Assembly (NCBI RefSeq): GCF_031598375.1
Contig: NZ_CP123872.1
Span: 1 to 64,000 of the forward strand
Source: Temperatibacter marinus
Lineage (GTDB): Bacteria; Pseudomonadota; Alphaproteobacteria; Sphingomonadales; Kordiimonadaceae
Direction: 5' to 3'
Length of the DNA stretch: 64,000 bases
This document shows, one piece after another, positions 1 to 58,401 of this stretch. How positions within the stretch are numbered: position 1 is the first letter of the stretch; the number at the start of each line of letters is the position of its first letter. The position numbers and the translations under genes are program-made. The notes under the pieces are model-generated. The model had not been told where the DNA came from. It did not search any database and was given only the letters and a program-made list of their open reading frames with translations.

Positions 1-687
1 ATGCGTGTCTTACTCATAGAAGATGATCCAACGGTCACCAGATCAATAGAGCTGATGCTGGCATCAGAAGGGTTTAATGTATACAGCACAGACATGGGCG
101 AGGAAGGCCTTGATCTTGGAAAGTTGTATGACTACGATATCATCCTTTTAGATCTTAACCTTCCCGATATGCATGGGTATGATGTTTTGCGCCAGCTTCG
201 GGCATCAAAAATTGAAACCCCTATCTTGATCCTCTCAGGCCTGACTGAAATGGAAAATAAGGTCAAAGGTCTCGGATTTGGGGCCGATGATTATCTCACC
301 AAACCTTTCCACAAAGAGGAACTCGTTGCGAGAATTCAGGCTATTGTTCGGCGCTCTAAAGGGCATGCGCAGTCTATCATCACGACAGGTCAGCTGTCGG
401 TAAATCTGGACCAGAAAACTGTAGAAGTGAATAAGAAACGTGTCCATCTTACTGGGAAAGAGTATGCGATGATCGAGCTCTTTTCTCTTAGAAAAGGTAC
501 GACGTTAACAAAAGAAATGTTTCTCAATCATTTATATGGGGGCATTGACGAACCTGAGTTAAAGATTATTGACGTTTTCATCTGTAAATTGCGAAAGAAA
601 ATTGCAACAGCTGCAGGCGGTGCTAATTATATCGAGACTGTGTGGGGACGAGGATATGTCCTGCGGGAACCTGAGGCTGCAGAATAA
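1..687 (+). CDS. ctrA: Cell-cycle response regulator CtrA
   Basis: OmpR-family DNA-binding response regulator of 228 aa, close to the usual CtrA length. The receiver domain (about 1-118) has the acidic pocket E7-D8-D9, phosphoacceptor D51 in LLDLNLPD and the conserved lysine K101 in LTKPF. A winged-helix output domain (about 125-225) ends in the typical WGRGYVL wing. In Alphaproteobacteria CtrA-P binds TTAA-N7-TTAA boxes and controls cell-cycle, flagellar and envelope genes, and such a box lies in this window at 6765-6779. The ATG is the first base of the window, so promoter and RBS are not visible. An intrinsic terminator follows 54 bp after the stop. Family identity is clear; regulon members are inferred. 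Confidence 0.95.
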
Positions 688-2307: not shown

Positions 2308-3879
2308 ATGAACTATAAATTACTCATTTTACCCCTCACAATACTGACTTATTGTATTCTAATCAATCTTGCTAAATTTGATGCCTCAATTGTAAAAGGC
2401 CTCATTCACATCGCTTTTCAATCTTGTTTATTGCTAGGCCTATTCACTCTTGTAAAAAGAAAAGGGATTAGACTAACTCTTGCTTTAGTATTGAGTGCGG
2501 AACTGTTTACACAACTCACGTATCAGTCCTCCCTCTCGGTAAGCCTCATCATGAGTCTCTTAAACACATCTCTTGGTGAAGTCATCTCATTCATCAGCTA
2601 CAACAGCCTTCAAATTCTTACGATTGGGCTGTTTCTATTCAGCATCACCGCAGCCCCATCCCAGCAACGTCAATCAATCTCATATCTCTTAACCTTTGTT
2701 GGCATTCTCTATGTTTTTATGCCTCTAGGTATCTCTAGCAACAACCTCTTCTCATCAGACCATTATAAAAGCTATCTAAAGACAGGGATGGCACGAGGGT
2801 TTTCGGAAAGATATACTAAAATTGAATATGCCATCCATGAGGATATTGGGGGTAGACTGCCAGCGATTAAATCAATTCGCGGCATTATGGATAGCCTCGT
2901 CTTATTTTCCCGCCAAGTCAACATCGAAAGCAGCTGGAGCCACGTCACATCCTCTCGCAATGGTAAGGATTTATTGGTCATAGGTATCGGTGAAGCACTT
3001 AGAGCTGATAATTTAGGGATTTATGGGTATTCTAGACAGACAACACCTCTCTTATCGCAACGCATAAATACACTTGATTTATTCAAAAATACATATGCGG
3101 CCGGAACAAATACATGGAGTTCTATTCCTGCAATCTTAACAAAAATGAATCAGACACCCGATCTCTCAAAATCTATTATCAATCTGGCAAAAGATGCCGG
3201 GTATACAACTTACTGGATCTCAAATCATGCCAAGGTAAGCCGCTGGGATTTTTCAGTGTCTGCTCTGGCGGGTCAAGCCGACCATTCTTTCTTTTTTTCC
3301 ACAGATGAAGGCGGGGAAGTCTACGATGAGGCGTTGTTAAAGACGCTAAAGACCATGCTTGTAAAGAGGGACGATAAATCCCTTTTTATCTTACACTTTT
3401 ATGGGTCACATATGTCATTTGAAGATCGCTACCCTAAGAATTTCTCTAAATTCAGAGGCGAAAACTCGTCTTTAGACCGCTATGATAACTCAATTCTATA
3501 TACTGATTATGTTCAGGATAAGATCATAGACTTGGTGGCCGCAGAAAAAGGAAAATATCTATTCTTTGCAGACCACGGACTTACCTCACCAGAGGGTAAA
3601 ATACCTTTGAGGCATGATGTCAGAAAAAGCCCAGATCCGAATTCATTAAAAGTACCGTTTTTTACATTTCCAAAAGAAGAGTTTTTAACAAGCCTTCATG
3701 AAAAAGAGGCTATTTCCCTTTATTATTTTGAATGTATTTTCTCGAGATGGGCGGCTATTACTGCCCCTGACCTACAGGCGAACAAACATTGTGAAACCAA
3801 GAGCGGCGATCAAGATATCCAGTTTCTTGATTCCAACCTGAAACTTCATACGATCTCCTCGCAAAAGAAGTCACACTAG
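2308..3879 (+). CDS. Phosphoethanolamine transferase-like membrane enzyme (EptA/sulfatase fold)
   Basis: A 523-aa inner-membrane protein with about four to five hydrophobic segments in residues 1-145, then a large periplasmic alkaline-phosphatase-fold domain. Family motifs: GIGEALRADNLGIYGYSR (metal-binding Glu), NTWSSIPAIL (region of the nucleophile Thr), HFYGSHMSFEDRYP, and FADHGL (metal-binding Asp-His). EptA/LptA/OpgE relatives move phosphoethanolamine from phosphatidylethanolamine to lipid A, glycans or proteins; which acceptor applies here cannot be told. The ATG follows AAAGGGATGAAGA. The gene shares a transcription unit with the GDPD-like gene 30 bp upstream. Its stop overlaps the stop of the convergent PHA depolymerase within CTAG. 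Confidence 0.75.
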   Translation: MNYKLLILPLTILTYCILINLAKFDASIVKGLIHIAFQSCLLLGLFTLVKRKGIRLTLALVLSAELFTQLTYQSSLSVSLIMSLLNTSLGEVISFISYNSLQILTIGLFLFSITAAPSQQRQSISYLLTFVGILYVFMPLGISSNNLFSSDHYKSYLKTGMARGFSERYTKIEYAIHEDIGGRLPAIKSIRGIMDSLVLFSRQVNIESSWSHVTSSRNGKDLLVIGIGEALRADNLGIYGYSRQTTPLLSQRINTLDLFKNTYAAGTNTWSSIPAILTKMNQTPDLSKSIINLAKDAGYTTYWISNHAKVSRWDFSVSALAGQADHSFFFSTDEGGEVYDEALLKTLKTMLVKRDDKSLFILHFYGSHMSFEDRYPKNFSKFRGENSSLDRYDNSILYTDYVQDKIIDLVAAEKGKYLFFADHGLTSPEGKIPLRHDVRKSPDPNSLKVPFFTFPKEEFLTSLHEKEAISLYYFECIFSRWAAITAPDLQANKHCETKSGDQDIQFLDSNLKLHTISSQKKSH

Positions 3880-5117
3880 GCTGTTTTTTTCTTCACCTTC
3901 TGATCATGTTTTCGAACAAAATCTTTAAAGCGCGGACAAATGTCCTCTCTCCAGCGTCGACCATTAAAGATACCATAGTGTCCGACTTTGGGGGCAAGGT
4001 AATAGTCTTTTAATTCATGCGGCAGTGACGTTGAAATATCCAAAGCAGCCTTCGTCTGTCCCTGACCAGAAATATCATCTAGCTCCCCTTCTATAGCAAG
4101 AATAGCTGTCTCGTTGATTGCTTCTGGTTTAATGGTCCGCCCCTTTGAAACCCACTTTCCATCGGGTAAAAGGTGACGCTGAAATACAATATCAATCGTC
4201 TGCAAATAGAATTCTGCAGTCATGTCCATCACTGCCCGATATTCTTCGTAAAAAGCCCTCGTTTTATTTGCGCTCTCTCCGTCGCCGGTGACCAGTTTCT
4301 CAAACATTTCATTATGCTTATCCACATGATCACCTAGATTCATTGTCATAAAGCCTGCGAGTTGCAGAAATCCAGGGTAAACTTTTCTCATCATTCCAGG
4401 ATTTGGTGCTGGAACCATCGTGATAACGTTATTTTCAAACCAACTATAGGGGCGATCTTGCGCCAACTGATTTACCTCTGTCGGGCTTTTTCTTGTATCG
4501 ATCGGGCCACCCATCAGTGTCATTGAGGCAGGCGTACACGGATGATCTTCTTCACTCATAAGAGCAAGAGCAGCATAAACAGGCACACAAGGCTGACAAA
4601 CGGCTAATATATGTGTGTTCGGTCCTAAATCCTCTAACCAATCAACAATATAATCAACATAATCGTCTAAATCGAAACTGCCCTCCGTCATGGGAATTTT
4701 TCGGGCATCGCGCCAATCTGTGATATAAACATCATGATCTGGCAAAAGAGCTTCAACTGTTCCCCGTAATAAAGTGGCATAATGTCCAGACATGGGAGCG
4801 ACAATCAATACCCGAGGATCACTGCAATGAGTTTTCCTCTTAAAATGTTTAAGTTGCCCAAACGGGCGACGGCTAACAATTTGCTCTTCTACCTCAATGG
4901 TCTGCCCCTCAATAATCGTTGAAGTCAGGCCGAATTTAGGCTTGCCGTATCGTCGCGTTAACTGTTCGAGAATATCAAAGCTTGCAGAGGCAAAACGCCC
5001 TGCCGGTGTATGAGATACAGGATTAGTCGGGTTAGAATAAAACTTCTGTCCCTGTGTTGCCATATAGCGCATTGGCGCAAAAGCCATCTGTTGCATTTCA
5101 TAAAATGTGTATAGCAT
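3876..5117 (-). CDS. phaZ: Intracellular polyhydroxyalkanoate depolymerase
   Basis: A 413-aa alpha/beta-hydrolase of the intracellular PHB depolymerase family (DepA/PhaZ1 type), which hydrolyses stored polyhydroxyalkanoate granules. The N-terminal MLYTFYEMQQMAFAPMR is the hallmark of this family. The cysteine of AVCQPCVP is the catalytic nucleophile (these enzymes use Cys rather than Ser), with ELDDIS and KVGHYGIFNG supplying Asp and His. The frame stays open upstream to 5231, but that extension overlaps the kinase gene and lacks family similarity, so the ATG at 5117 is chosen. It lies 16 bp after the kinase stop, so the two probably share a transcript. It implies that the cell stores PHB. 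Confidence 0.9.
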   Translation of the reverse strand: MLYTFYEMQQMAFAPMRYMATQGQKFYSNPTNPVSHTPAGRFASASFDILEQLTRRYGKPKFGLTSTIIEGQTIEVEEQIVSRRPFGQLKHFKRKTHCSDPRVLIVAPMSGHYATLLRGTVEALLPDHDVYITDWRDARKIPMTEGSFDLDDYVDYIVDWLEDLGPNTHILAVCQPCVPVYAALALMSEEDHPCTPASMTLMGGPIDTRKSPTEVNQLAQDRPYSWFENNVITMVPAPNPGMMRKVYPGFLQLAGFMTMNLGDHVDKHNEMFEKLVTGDGESANKTRAFYEEYRAVMDMTAEFYLQTIDIVFQRHLLPDGKWVSKGRTIKPEAINETAILAIEGELDDISGQGQTKAALDISTSLPHELKDYYLAPKVGHYGIFNGRRWREDICPRFKDFVRKHDQKVKKKTA

Positions 5118-5133
5118 GATAAACTTTCTGATA

Positions 5134-6714
5134 CTAAGAACTTGAGATAGAACGCTCTGCTGGGAAATTAATTGTAATTTTTGTCCCTTCACCCATTTCA
5201 CTGTCCAGTTCAATGGTGCCTTCATGTTCATTCACAAAGGAAGCAACAATCGCAAGGCCCAGTCCTGTTCCTTCGTGGGAACGACTTAAAGCGCCTGAGG
5301 CTCTCATAAAGGGCGTGAAAATGTCTTCATGCTCTTCTGAAGGGATGCCAATACCGGTATCCTCAACATAGACCGAGCACCCACCGTCCTCTCGGATATG
5401 TGCTTCTAAATGGACTTTTCCTGATTCAGGTGTAAATTTTATGGCATTGGAAAGGATATTGATGACGGACTGCTTAATGCGCAGCCGATCCCCATGCAAC
5501 AGAGGGAGGTCGTTAGGGATCTTACTGGTAAGTTTTAAACTCTTAGACGCGGCTTGCCCACTCATCAGAGAAACGCTTTCATTCAGTAAATCTGTAAAGG
5601 CAAAGTCTTCAGGTTCCATCTGCATTTGGCCCGCTTCAATTTTCGCCAAATCCAAGACTTCACCAAGCAACGCTCCTAAATGTTCACTGCTGTCCTTAAT
5701 ATCATTCAAATAAGATTTATAGCGGTCATTTCCAATGGGACCAAACATCTCGTCACTCATAATACTAGAAAAACCAATAATCGCATTCAACGGCGTTCTT
5801 AATTCGTGGGAGACATTAGCAAGGAAAGCTGATTTAGCACGGTTTGCCTTCTCCGCCTCTTCTTTCGTTGCTATCAATTCCATGGTGATTTTACGACCAT
5901 TCTGCACTTCTTTTTCGAGTTCCCAAGTCCTTTTACGAAGGGTATCTTCAGACGAAGCCAGCGCTTTGTTCGTTGCTCGCATATTGTCCAACATTGCTTG
6001 TGACTTATCAAAAGCATTATTCAGAGATTGTGCAAGAATACCGATTTCATCTTCGCGATGATTTTCTGCAATTGGGATTCGGCGCTCACCGGGCTGCTCG
6101 GGGTCAATTAAACTCACCTGTCCAACCATCTGCGAGAGAGGTTTCGTCAGAGACGCATAAAAGACAAAATACAAAAGCCCCACAAGGAGAAAATTGCGGA
6201 TAAACCCTGACAGAAAAATTGTCATCACGCGGGAGAAAAAGGGCTGCATACCGAGGGCTTTATCAACGACCACTTCTAATCGGCCTGGCTTATCAGAGAA
6301 AGTGTTTTCAACTTCAAGGTCACGAGAGAATGTGATCATATCCGTTACAAAAGAGCGGGCTATCCTAAGAGTTGTGCTGTTCTTACTGAGTTCTTGGTCT
6401 GTTGAAACATCTCTATAGGACGCAAGAATTTCATTATTCTCATCAATAATCCGGGCTTCCCGAATGAAAGGATAAATGACAAGCCCTTCTACCATTTCTT
6501 CCGCCAACTCAGGATCAAGAATCATTACAACACGAGAAGAAGATTTAGAGTGCACCAGCATAATCTCTTCTACAGAACGAGAGAGCTCATCCCCTTCTTG
6601 CAAATAATCCCAATAAACCTGGAGGCAGGAAAGCAAAATTCCAACAGAAAAGGCGATGAGAACTGCTGTCCTTGCCATCTTAAAAGATAATCTTTTCTGC
6701 CAATCCGACTTCAA
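5134..6714 (-). CDS. Membrane sensor histidine kinase (HAMP-HisKA-HATPase_c)
   Basis: A 526-aa sensor kinase. A transmembrane helix at about 14-32, a periplasmic domain at 33-165, a second helix at 166-188 and a HAMP-like linker come first, then a coiled coil at about 240-295. The HisKA dimerisation domain has H303 in NVSHELRTPLN, and the ATPase domain has N-box NILSNAIKFTP, DTGIGIP and GTGLGLAI. There is no receiver domain, so its partner regulator is encoded elsewhere. The start is TTG, supported by a strong GGGGAGG RBS 5 nt upstream. A CtrA-type box sits about 50-65 bp upstream of this start, so cell-cycle control is plausible. It resembles the PleC/DivJ-like group in its kinase core, but I cannot assign it to one. 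Confidence 0.88.
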   Translation of the reverse strand: MKSDWQKRLSFKMARTAVLIAFSVGILLSCLQVYWDYLQEGDELSRSVEEIMLVHSKSSSRVVMILDPELAEEMVEGLVIYPFIREARIIDENNEILASYRDVSTDQELSKNSTTLRIARSFVTDMITFSRDLEVENTFSDKPGRLEVVVDKALGMQPFFSRVMTIFLSGFIRNFLLVGLLYFVFYASLTKPLSQMVGQVSLIDPEQPGERRIPIAENHREDEIGILAQSLNNAFDKSQAMLDNMRATNKALASSEDTLRKRTWELEKEVQNGRKITMELIATKEEAEKANRAKSAFLANVSHELRTPLNAIIGFSSIMSDEMFGPIGNDRYKSYLNDIKDSSEHLGALLGEVLDLAKIEAGQMQMEPEDFAFTDLLNESVSLMSGQAASKSLKLTSKIPNDLPLLHGDRLRIKQSVINILSNAIKFTPESGKVHLEAHIREDGGCSVYVEDTGIGIPSEEHEDIFTPFMRASGALSRSHEGTGLGLAIVASFVNEHEGTIELDSEMGEGTKITINFPAERSISSS

Positions 6715-6764
6715 ATAAACCTCCCCAAGCCAACTATTCGAGACAACGTCGTGAATAGTAACAG

Positions 6765-6779
6765 TTAATTCTTTATTAA
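6765..6779 (-). promoter_or_regulatory. Candidate CtrA-binding site (TTAA-N7-TTAA)
   Basis: On the minus strand the sequence reads TTAATAAAGAATTAAC, an exact TTAA-N7-TTAA full site followed by C, as in the Caulobacter CtrA consensus. It lies 51 bp upstream of the histidine kinase start and is the only perfect match I noticed in the intergenic regions. CtrA itself is encoded at the window start. Binding is inferred from the motif only. Confidence 0.55.
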
Positions 6780-6882
6780 GTGTAAACGAAGACTACTGTC
6801 ATTTCCTCTTTCTGACCAGTGAAATATTAGGGAATGATGCTTTTGCGCTGCAAAAAAGACATCCGATATTAACAGTAAACTT

Positions 6883-7302
6883 TTACCACTTTCCAACATT
6901 CCCCATAGATGCCCAAGGTTCTTTGGGAGGCAGCCTTTCCCCTTGCTGTAATAACTCTATGGAAATATTATCAGGGGACCTAACAAATGCCATATGACCA
7001 TCGCGGGGTGGACGGTTAATTGTGACACCCGCATCCATCAGGCGCTGACATGTCTCATAAATATTTTCAACATGATAGGCTAAATGCCCAAAGTTTCGAC
7101 CTTCATCATAGACTTCGGGATCCCAGTTGTATGTAAGTTCAACCTGAGAAGATTCGTCGCCTTCAGCAGCTAAAAATACAAGGGTAAAACGACCGGCCGG
7201 CACCTCTTTACGATTCACCTCTGTGAGGCCGAGTTTTTTACAATAAAAATCTAGAGACTCATCTAAGTCTGAGACACGAACCATTGTGTGTAAATATTTC
7301 AT
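6883..7302 (-). CDS. gloA: Lactoylglutathione lyase (glyoxalase I)
   Basis: A 139-aa glyoxalase I that isomerises the glutathione-methylglyoxal hemithioacetal to S-lactoylglutathione in the cytosol. It has two VOC beta-alpha-beta-beta-beta modules. Metal ligands are H5 in YLHTMVRV, the Glu of QVELTYNW, the His of FGHLAYHV and the Glu of ISIELLQ. The motif [11 protein letters not shown] is typical of GloA. The ATG follows AGGGAATTTT. It is the last gene of a tight minus-strand cluster GNAT-fRMsr-gloA (8 bp after the fRMsr stop), which groups carbonyl and oxidative damage defence. Confidence 0.93.
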
Positions 7303-55555: not shown

Positions 55556-55659
55556 TTTAGCCACCCTCATACCCTAAAATACGATCTATAATTGCTTTAA
55601 ACAATTATTAAGTGACTTTCTTCTATTCTGCTTCCTTTCAGTATTGTGTAAAGGAAGAC

Positions 55660-56925: not shown

Positions 56926-58401
56926 CTAATTGTTGCTTTGTTTAGTTTTTTCAACAATCATCCCTAGTAATTTATTCAACACAACATCCTCTTGAGTTTG
57001 AACGATTGGAGATGTAATCGTCCAGTCAGGTTTAACACCGTCATTTTTTAGCTCACCTGATGGTCTGACAATATGTGCTTTCGGGAAGCCAACAGAAATT
57101 TTTGTTTCTGGAAGGGTAAAGGTTTCCATAGCCCCATATGTAGTAGCCATATCAGATGTCTTTTCCCCAACTATTATACCAAACTTATAATCTTGAACTA
57201 TTGATGCAAACGTGACGGCATTCGAAAATGAGTGTCTATTGACTAAAACATATACTTCACCCTTGTATAAGTCCCCCTCTCTGGGTTTCACGTTCGAAAA
57301 ATCTAGGTTAAAAAAATCTCCATAGGGCGTTTTATTATAATGCTTAGCGTATCGATAGGAGATGCTATTTTTATCAACAGGTCTACCATCAAGTCTCTTT
57401 TGATTTGCTATGTCGGCTTCATGACTTGATTTAACTTTAAACGAGGAGTTGAACTTGAAAGACCTATCTGCAAACCAAGCAATAATCGGATCGCTAAAAG
57501 AAACATCCCCACCAGGGTTTAAGCGTAAATCTATGATAAGTTTTTTAGCCTTTTTCGTGAAAGTATTTTCAAACGCTTTATCTAAAAACTCTATGAAGTA
57601 TTTAGAATTCCAAAGTTGAGATGGGTTTTCTGCATTATAAAACGGTCCAGGTCGAAAATATCCAACGCTATCAGTCAGCATCTTCACGACACGGTCTGTC
57701 GGGCTTAAAGTGAAAAAGCTACGATTCTCTGGGGTATCTAATTTTGCTAAGCTTTTTATAGAGGCTTTATAAATGTGGCCTGTTTGTGATTTTAGTATTA
57801 AATCAAAGCTATTAATTTCACCGTATTCCAACCAAAGATATTTAGGAAAAGAGAATTCCAAAATAGAGTCGGCAATATATTGAGTATCCGCAGAAATGTG
57901 TTTTGATAACTTTGCTAAATAAGATGATATAGCTTTGCTGTTTACGGATAGAATTTCGTCACCAATTTTTATATATTTGTTTTCTGAATAATTTTCAGAA
58001 ACATAAGTTTTACCTTCTATTATTCGGGGAAATATAGGAAATATTTTGCCTCCTGCTTGACGATATTCTTGATATTCCACTTCTGGAAAATCAATTCTCG
58101 CATGAGCAACTTTCCCAAAAGCTACAAATTTCTGAAACAACACCTTAGCCTCAAGCCTACTCATGGGCTTATTTAAATCAGACTTAATACTGCTAAAAAA
58201 ATTGTCATATGCGGTTTTATTTGTGTGAGCATATAAATCGATATGGGCGTTTTTAAGCCTTTGATACAATGCATCAAAATCAGATTGTAACTGTGTAACT
58301 GTTAACATCTGATGAGAAGGATTCTCATCAGCATGAGTATGTTTTGTTGTAATTATAAATAGTATTATTAAGCATAGACATGTATTTTTTATAAATTGCA
58401 T
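56926..58401 (-). CDS. Secreted S41-family (C-terminal-processing-like) peptidase
   Basis: A 491-aa protein with a cleavable signal peptide (about 1-24, ending near THA), an N-terminal helical region and a tail-specific-protease domain from about residue 265. The strand KAKKLIIDLRLNPGGDVSFSD is the S41 core; the nucleophile-type Ser is in VNRHSFSNAVTFAS, and the conserved GEKTSD loop and SGELKNDGVKPDWTI end follow. A PDZ-like stretch (KIGDEILSVNSKAI) precedes it. A Lys general base cannot be assigned with certainty. It is divergent from the ToxR-type regulator with a 146-bp spacer. Confidence 0.82.
   Translation of the reverse strand: MQFIKNTCLCLIILFIITTKHTHADENPSHQMLTVTQLQSDFDALYQRLKNAHIDLYAHTNKTAYDNFFSSIKSDLNKPMSRLEAKVLFQKFVAFGKVAHARIDFPEVEYQEYRQAGGKIFPIFPRIIEGKTYVSENYSENKYIKIGDEILSVNSKAISSYLAKLSKHISADTQYIADSILEFSFPKYLWLEYGEINSFDLILKSQTGHIYKASIKSLAKLDTPENRSFFTLSPTDRVVKMLTDSVGYFRPGPFYNAENPSQLWNSKYFIEFLDKAFENTFTKKAKKLIIDLRLNPGGDVSFSDPIIAWFADRSFKFNSSFKVKSSHEADIANQKRLDGRPVDKNSISYRYAKHYNKTPYGDFFNLDFSNVKPREGDLYKGEVYVLVNRHSFSNAVTFASIVQDYKFGIIVGEKTSDMATTYGAMETFTLPETKISVGFPKAHIVRPSGELKNDGVKPDWTITSPIVQTQEDVVLNKLLGMIVEKTKQSNN

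Follow-up and report, generated by a model that had tools for sequence, protein, structure and literature searches.

A conserved candidate CtrA box upstream of an orphan histidine kinase gene and its possible read-through into phaZ in Temperatibacter marinus

Results

Features of the kinase locus

We analysed the first 64,000 nucleotides of the Temperatibacter marinus contig NZ_CP123872.1, hereafter the window, within a family sample of 29 genomes in which the window genome is G000. The features used below are listed with their positions in the window; minus is the strand of the kinase gene.

1..687, plus: ctrA, the presumed regulator (NCBIfam CtrA equivalog NF045991, 423.6 bits, cut-off 350)
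3876..5117, minus: phaZ, intracellular PHA/PHB depolymerase, 413 aa (TIGR01849, 590.2 bits, cut-off 300.75; PF06850)
5118..5133, minus: gap of 16 bp from the kinase stop to the phaZ ATG (at 5117), with no terminator-like site inside
5134..6714, minus: orphan membrane histidine kinase (HK), 526 aa, TTG start (HisKA and HATPase_c over cut-offs)
6720..6726, minus: Shine-Dalgarno sequence GGGGAGG of the HK gene, read directly, 5 bases before the start
6760..6761, minus: TT at +18/+19 from the box start (T at +18 in 20/21 and at +19 in 18/21 aligned promoters, this genome included)
6764..6779, minus (HK strand): putative CtrA full-site box TTAA-N7-TTAAC (TTAATAAAGAATTAAC), read directly, its position kept in relatives
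6843..6853, either strand: PhaR-type palindrome TTGCGCTGCAA (plus) or TTGCAGCGCAA (HK strand), 139 bp before the HK start
6883..7302, minus: gloA-like glyoxalase gene, upstream of HK

Besides its two kinase domains, HK gave sub-threshold matches to HAMP and, in its periplasmic part, to CHASE8. Next to it in the window, we recognised no gene for a response regulator. HK very probably starts with the TTG at 6714, which an earlier sequence-only reading had also taken as the start, noting a strong ribosome-binding site: GGGGAGG stands at 6726-6720, and TTG or GTG was found at the matching position in 23 of the 25 family relatives, the exceptions being G004 and G006, whose HK start codons are uncertain. 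The neighbourhood upstream is also stable. gloA precedes HK in every family HK locus that reaches far enough upstream except that of G004, where gloA was not found, and the order gaf-gloA-HK is kept in the family loci reaching that far.

The HK alignment (A1) covers 18 of the 25 family relatives. A scan of genome contigs with HK gave seven loci, namely four Marinobacter kinases with 31-33% identity and three matches to the kinase core only. The full-length homologues in two Marinobacter loci, L079 and L081, have 650 and 663 aa; the end of the L079 kinase overlaps with a receiver-like reading frame.

Like the PdhS, DivJ and PleC kinases, which act upstream of CtrA according to the cited passages of PMC7003649, HK is a HisKA-HATPase_c membrane kinase, but its match to PdhS and DivJ is confined to the kinase core. 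HK scored 203.2 bits with the PdhS model NF041593 (cut-off 2000) and 185.3 bits with the DivJ model NF050805 (cut-off 1000), cut-offs that were set for whole proteins with other sensor parts. These scores fall into the range of those with the TorS, BarA and PnpS models (235, 212 and 208 bits, respectively) and lie far below each equivalog cut-off; hence, membership of HK in the PdhS/DivJ family is unsupported. A structure prediction of HK from five sequences (mean pLDDT 60.6, pTM 0.33) was too weak for use.

The box and its counts in the window and the genome

Exact TTAA-N7-TTAAC occurs once in the 64 kb window, as TTAATAAAGAATTAAC at 6779-6764 on the minus strand, which bears out the earlier description of an exact TTAA-N7-TTAA followed by C. 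The distance to the TTG had been given as 51 bp, which is the difference between 6765 and 6714; the gap between the box end (C at 6764) and the start at 6714 is actually 49 bp. The pattern had also been called the CtrA full-site consensus. This agrees with the cited passages on other organisms, from which the consensus is taken: full sites of Caulobacter are TTAA-N7-TTAA(C), and in promoters under activation their 5' base lies near -35 (PMC4287350), and the CtrA ChIP-seq consensus of Hyphomonas is TTAA-N7-TTAAC (PMC7200025).

Counts of the pattern were at chance in the window, where TTAA-N7-TTAA was found 3 times against 1.98 expected and 3 was reached by 33 of 100 shuffles. With coding DNA included, TTAA-N7-TTAAC was not enriched in the genome either (27 exact sites vs 81 for the reversed control pattern; 260 for spacings 4-10 together). 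The count alone therefore proves nothing. Because coding DNA dominates them, such counts are uninformative for the whole window or genome; they were dropped as a significance test and replaced by spacing counts in noncoding DNA and by conservation. The further two TTAA-N7-TTAA matches in the window lie at 55597-55611, directly before an ORF call, and at 58173-58187, a match that is absent from the noncoding places.

Conservation of the box at the kinase promoter

The sequence-only reading had proposed conservation of the box in orthologous promoters as a check. The outcome favours that reading. We examined 26 HK promoters of the family sample; in G007 and G026, no HK orthologue passed the threshold, and the HK of G024 is split over two contigs. 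On the sense strand between -90 and -50, exact TTAA-N7-TTWA was found in 15/26 promoters from 4/8 genera, compared with a mean of 0.25 and a maximum of 3 in 300 shuffled sets. When one mismatch was allowed, the box was found in 21/26 promoters from 5/8 genera (shuffles: mean 2.58, maximum 7); the shuffles leave the relatedness among the genomes in place. Other spacings were observed in 0-5 genomes, and the box was more conserved than most flanking bases in a profile of 21 of the 26 HK promoters. In both halves of the box, TTAA was observed only in G000 and in G005, which belongs to another genus; the second half-site is TTTA in most other family HK promoters.

No match between -90 and -50 was found in the remaining five of the 26 promoters (G001, G004, G006, G020, and G028), although G004 has exact TTAA-N7-TTTA at -129 as measured from its uncertain start. 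Three of these five belong to genomes with phaZ.

That the box is a functionless chance match in AT-rich intergenic DNA is what the counts at chance level in the window and the lack of enrichment in the genome with coding DNA included would fit. The position kept in 15/26 genomes against at most 3 in shuffles largely contradicts this, and we consider a chance match very improbable. The box exceeds chance by its conservation at the HK promoter and, more weakly, by its spacing in noncoding DNA, as described below.

When the promoters were aligned on the box (21 promoters), the relatives showed GCT.AAT at +25..+31 from the box start, a sequence that we take to resemble the alphaproteobacterial -10 element. 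A -10-like element 25 bp after the box start would place the box with its 5' end at about -38, comparable to promoters activated by CtrA. In the HK promoter of this genome, the box and the TT are kept, and the -10-like element was not recognisable.

Spacing in noncoding DNA and the genes behind the box

DNA was assigned to coding or noncoding by a simple longest-ORF rule. The first G000 sample consisted of the window and 38 stretches (824 kb, of which 63 kb noncoding), and spacings from 2 to 14 were counted. In its noncoding DNA, TTAA-Nk-TTAAC was found 8 times at k=7 and 0-4 times at the twelve other spacings, and TTAA-N7-TTAA at 16 places compared with 2-10 for other spacings. This sample was not fully blind, as it held the window and two stretches, L198 and L201, that had been shifted onto the fliL and dksA (flagellar-region) sites. 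We repeated the count without these three in 36 fixed-grid stretches of G000. TTAA-N7-TTAA was again the most frequent spacing in noncoding DNA (12 places vs 1-8), and the TTAAC form was found 5 times vs 0-4, an excess smaller than the 8 vs 0-4 of the first sample. Furthermore, 13 of the 27 genome-wide N7 TTAAC rows were noncoding, compared with 16 of 96 rows with other spacings in the fixed-grid stretches (Fisher P 0.0015).

In the relative G014, 800 kb in stretches unevenly spread over five contigs gave 7 noncoding places of TTAA-N7-TTAA vs 0-4 for other spacings. Neither the TTAAC form (2 vs 0-2 at other spacings) nor TTAA-N7-TTTA (5 vs 2-9) was enriched in the noncoding DNA of that sample. 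The N7 spacing is thus moderately favoured in noncoding DNA, and the TTTA variant is not.

The 13 intergenic rows of TTAA-N7-TTAAC in G000 correspond to 12 places, one of which was counted on both strands. Apart from HK, the genes that these boxes face include those for two methyl-accepting chemotaxis proteins (one identified by Pfam, the other from its sequence), two PAS_5 proteins (of which the second scored 21.4 bits against a cut-off of 22), a GGDEF protein and two DUF2336 proteins, as well as dksA and genes for a sulfotransferase and a family-28 glycosyltransferase, among others. The TTAA form of the box was also found with a flagellin-like gene (named from its sequence). This gene set looks like a CtrA regulon.

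Two of these genes were considered as a second conserved target and rejected. For DUF2336, the box was found in 5/25 promoters (relatives and own) at differing distances; the set comprised 25 of 27 rows, two G023 fragments being left out, and L221 came from a shortened locus whose upstream region may be misplaced. One of the two noncoding TTAA-N7-TTAAC rows in the G014 sample lies between a divergent DUF2336 pair, by eye the same pair. The GGDEF protein had no match in the other 28 genomes. Before dksA, two TTAA-N7-TTAA boxes stand about 80 bp apart at G000:C1:2287953-2288050 (L201), downstream of a fliX-like gene named from its sequence.

CtrA as the presumed regulator

The window begins with ctrA, as had been noticed before: positions 1-687 on the plus strand gave the CtrA equivalog score listed above. 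The contig start is exactly the ctrA ATG, probably as a result of rotation of a circular assembly, and a good ribosome-binding site for ctrA was found across the contig junction (contig end of G000, L058). A ctrA match was found in 29/29 family genomes. Among the 17 genomes with sciP, ctrA and HK on one contig, the three genes lie within about 65 kb in 16; in G008, HK is far off.

The ctrA and sciP promoters were tried as a source of the motif. Those of ctrA gave TTAA-N6-TTAA, not N7, in 27/29 genomes, with GTTAACCTTCGTTAAC-type repeats (upstream regions L115-L142) that are lacking in the window genome and G006. Those of sciP gave both, namely N7 in 5/28 and N6 in 7/28, and the window genome's own sciP promoter had an N6 match and no N7 match. 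The cited passages vary on this point. N6 is presumed functional in two Rhodobacter sphaeroides promoters (PMC6180460), and the Caulobacter ctrA P2 is N6 according to PMC6180460 and N7 according to PMC4287350. As a control with a CtrA target, the upstream regions of fliL gave N7 in 0/28, perhaps because fliL lies inside an operon.

Direct repeats of eleven bases are typical of OmpR-family regulators in general. It could be supposed that the conserved element is bound by another response regulator of this family, or is an AT-rich -35 region, and that its likeness to a CtrA site in this genome arose by chance. The TTAA-N7-TTTA form of most relatives is not an enriched class in G014, and N6 is at least as frequent as N7 in the family ctrA and sciP promoters, both of which would suit such a regulator. 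On the other hand, the site in T. marinus matches the CtrA consensus exactly, down to the final C, the box class keeps CtrA-type company, and G005, of another genus, has exact TTAA-N7-TTAA at HK too. We regard this explanation as unlikely, and control of HK by CtrA as likely.

Across many alphaproteobacteria, motility is under CtrA control to a greater extent than the cell cycle is. The sequence-only reading had proposed cell-cycle control of the kinase. CtrA control is supported by the box conserved at a fixed distance and by the genes behind the motif, whereas the term cell-cycle was carried over from the Caulobacter type of CtrA.

phaZ behind the kinase gene

The 16-bp gap reported earlier between HK and phaZ was confirmed at 5118-5133. 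In the family, phaZ (PF06850) was found in 7/29 genomes, near HK in six and about 76 kb away in G020; in G006, part of it lies on the HK contig and part on a second one. Only this genome among the seven has phaZ directly behind HK (16 bp). The two are separated in G003, G005, and G010 by a gene of opposite orientation that resembles a short-chain dehydrogenase. Many genomes that lack phaZ have the box, and three of the seven phaZ genomes lack it; hence, the box serves the kinase and not polymer degradation.

Within the HK gene, we observed one terminator-like match (6200-6179), below the shuffle expectation, and one promoter-like match on the HK strand (6011-5983). The promoter-like matches in the region numbered 5, compared with 6.5 in shuffles.

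PhaR-type sites before HK and phaZ

The palindrome at 6843-6853 matches the YGCRNYGCR core, and its own core is TTGCGCTGCA, as in the Sinorhizobium meliloti phaZ site of the PhaR regulon that was tested by EMSA (consensus and site from the cited passages of PMC12542648). A phaR gene is present in T. marinus (TIGR01848 over cut-off, G000:C1:1690706-1691032). We scanned the 400 bp upstream of phaZ in the relatives with a looser pattern, whose background was 57 in 824 kb. The stricter core TTGC[AG][CG]TGCA (TTGCRSTGCA), with a background of 10 both in 824 kb and in 800 kb, was found there in 5/5 relatives with an HK-linked phaZ, as six sites. G020, whose phaZ is unlinked, had none in the corresponding stretch. 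In T. marinus, no PhaR-type site was found in the 400 bp before phaZ, a stretch that is almost all HK coding DNA. Within 200 bp before HK, TTGCNNNGCA or TGCNNNGCAA was found in 0/27 other HK promoters (25 of the family and 2 more distant).

The phasin gene of this genome is preceded by three PhaR-type palindromes in a stretch of about 70 bp (G000:C1:2412571-2412638, L334). The strict site precedes 5/12 phasin matches, and a loose form, TGCNNNGCA, for which no background was counted, precedes 11/12. The strict site was found in 1/16 phaR promoters (16 of 18 rows, two fragments being left out), and no PhaR-type site was found next to phaR in this genome.

The PhaR-controlled phaZ and phasin promoters of S. 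meliloti in the cited passages of PMC12542648 thus share the core TTGCGCTGCA and the YGCRNYGCR palindrome with T. marinus, in which this type of site also stands before the phasin gene. Unlike those promoters, the site here precedes a gene for a histidine kinase, some 100 bp upstream of the presumed start and with the CtrA box between, and by eye the AT arms found in the S. meliloti consensus are matched only in part. We infer that 6843-6853 is a putative PhaR operator of the HK-phaZ unit.

Transcription of phaZ with HK is plausible because the 16-bp gap holds no terminator-like site and a PhaR-like site of the phaZ type stands before HK. Alternatively, CtrA would control HK while phaZ has its own promoter in the 3' end of HK, with no link between CtrA and the polymer. 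The relatives G003, G005, and G010, in which phaZ has its own upstream region with a PhaR-type site behind the oppositely oriented dehydrogenase-like gene, could be read in this way, as could the promoter-like match at 6011-5983. The PhaR-type site of T. marinus, however, stands before HK and not in the almost wholly coding 400 bp before phaZ, and promoter-like matches are no more frequent than in shuffles. We consider a separate phaZ promoter rather unlikely; HK and phaZ probably form one transcription unit in this genome. As an arrangement specific to this lineage, read-through of CtrA control into phaZ is plausible.

Discussion

Like the Caulobacter crescentus full-site promoters described in the cited passages of PMC4287350, the HK promoter has TTAA-N7-TTAA(C) before a signal-transduction gene. 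The box would cover the -35 region, its 5' base being at about -38, which would be a further likeness. The HK promoter differs from them in that the second half-site is TTTA in most relatives and that no -10 element was recognised in this genome. We propose that the box is the binding site of CtrA over the -35 region of the HK promoter; CtrA as the protein that binds the box, and as an activator, is inferred. Phosphorylated CtrA would then activate transcription of the orphan sensor kinase. In this genome only, phaZ follows HK after 16 bp and is probably on the HK transcript. With a PhaR palindrome of the phaZ type before HK, the HK-phaZ unit would answer to CtrA and PhaR together, that is, to the state of development or motility and to the state of the polymer. 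We put the probability of this reading as a whole, in which the CtrA box activates HK, phaZ is co-transcribed in T. marinus and CtrA and PhaR act jointly, at roughly 0.6.

If this is true, it would provide a direct transcriptional link from the CtrA programme to PHB mobilisation, through a single promoter region that bears both a CtrA box and a site of the PhaR type. This would be a modest addition and not a new mechanism; the kind of promoter is known, and the pairing is unusual. Among the literature matches listed, judged by titles, abstract openings and passages, no link between CtrA and PHB mobilisation was found. The link to polymer degradation is plausible and limited to this lineage; in the family as a whole, the conserved orphan kinase would be an addition to the likely CtrA regulon.

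A more far-reaching sequence of events can be imagined, although we hold it to be distinctly unlikely. In this scenario, phaZ would have come to lie behind an older CtrA-controlled kinase, and with a PhaR operator before the kinase the two would have become one operon. The kinase might report the state of storage or of the envelope to the CtrA pathway, and this feedback would couple polymer mobilisation with the development of motility.

The PhaR-type palindrome is also found elsewhere in the genome. TTGCRNYGCAA occurs at 25 places, of which 15, three more and the phasin one were listed. Among the places listed, the other copies lie before TonB-receptor-like genes or in coding DNA, and TTGCGCTGCAA palindromes were observed near the starts of TonB-receptor-like genes, named from their sequences, at G000:C1:620675, 745629, and 745876 (L295, L297, and L298, respectively).
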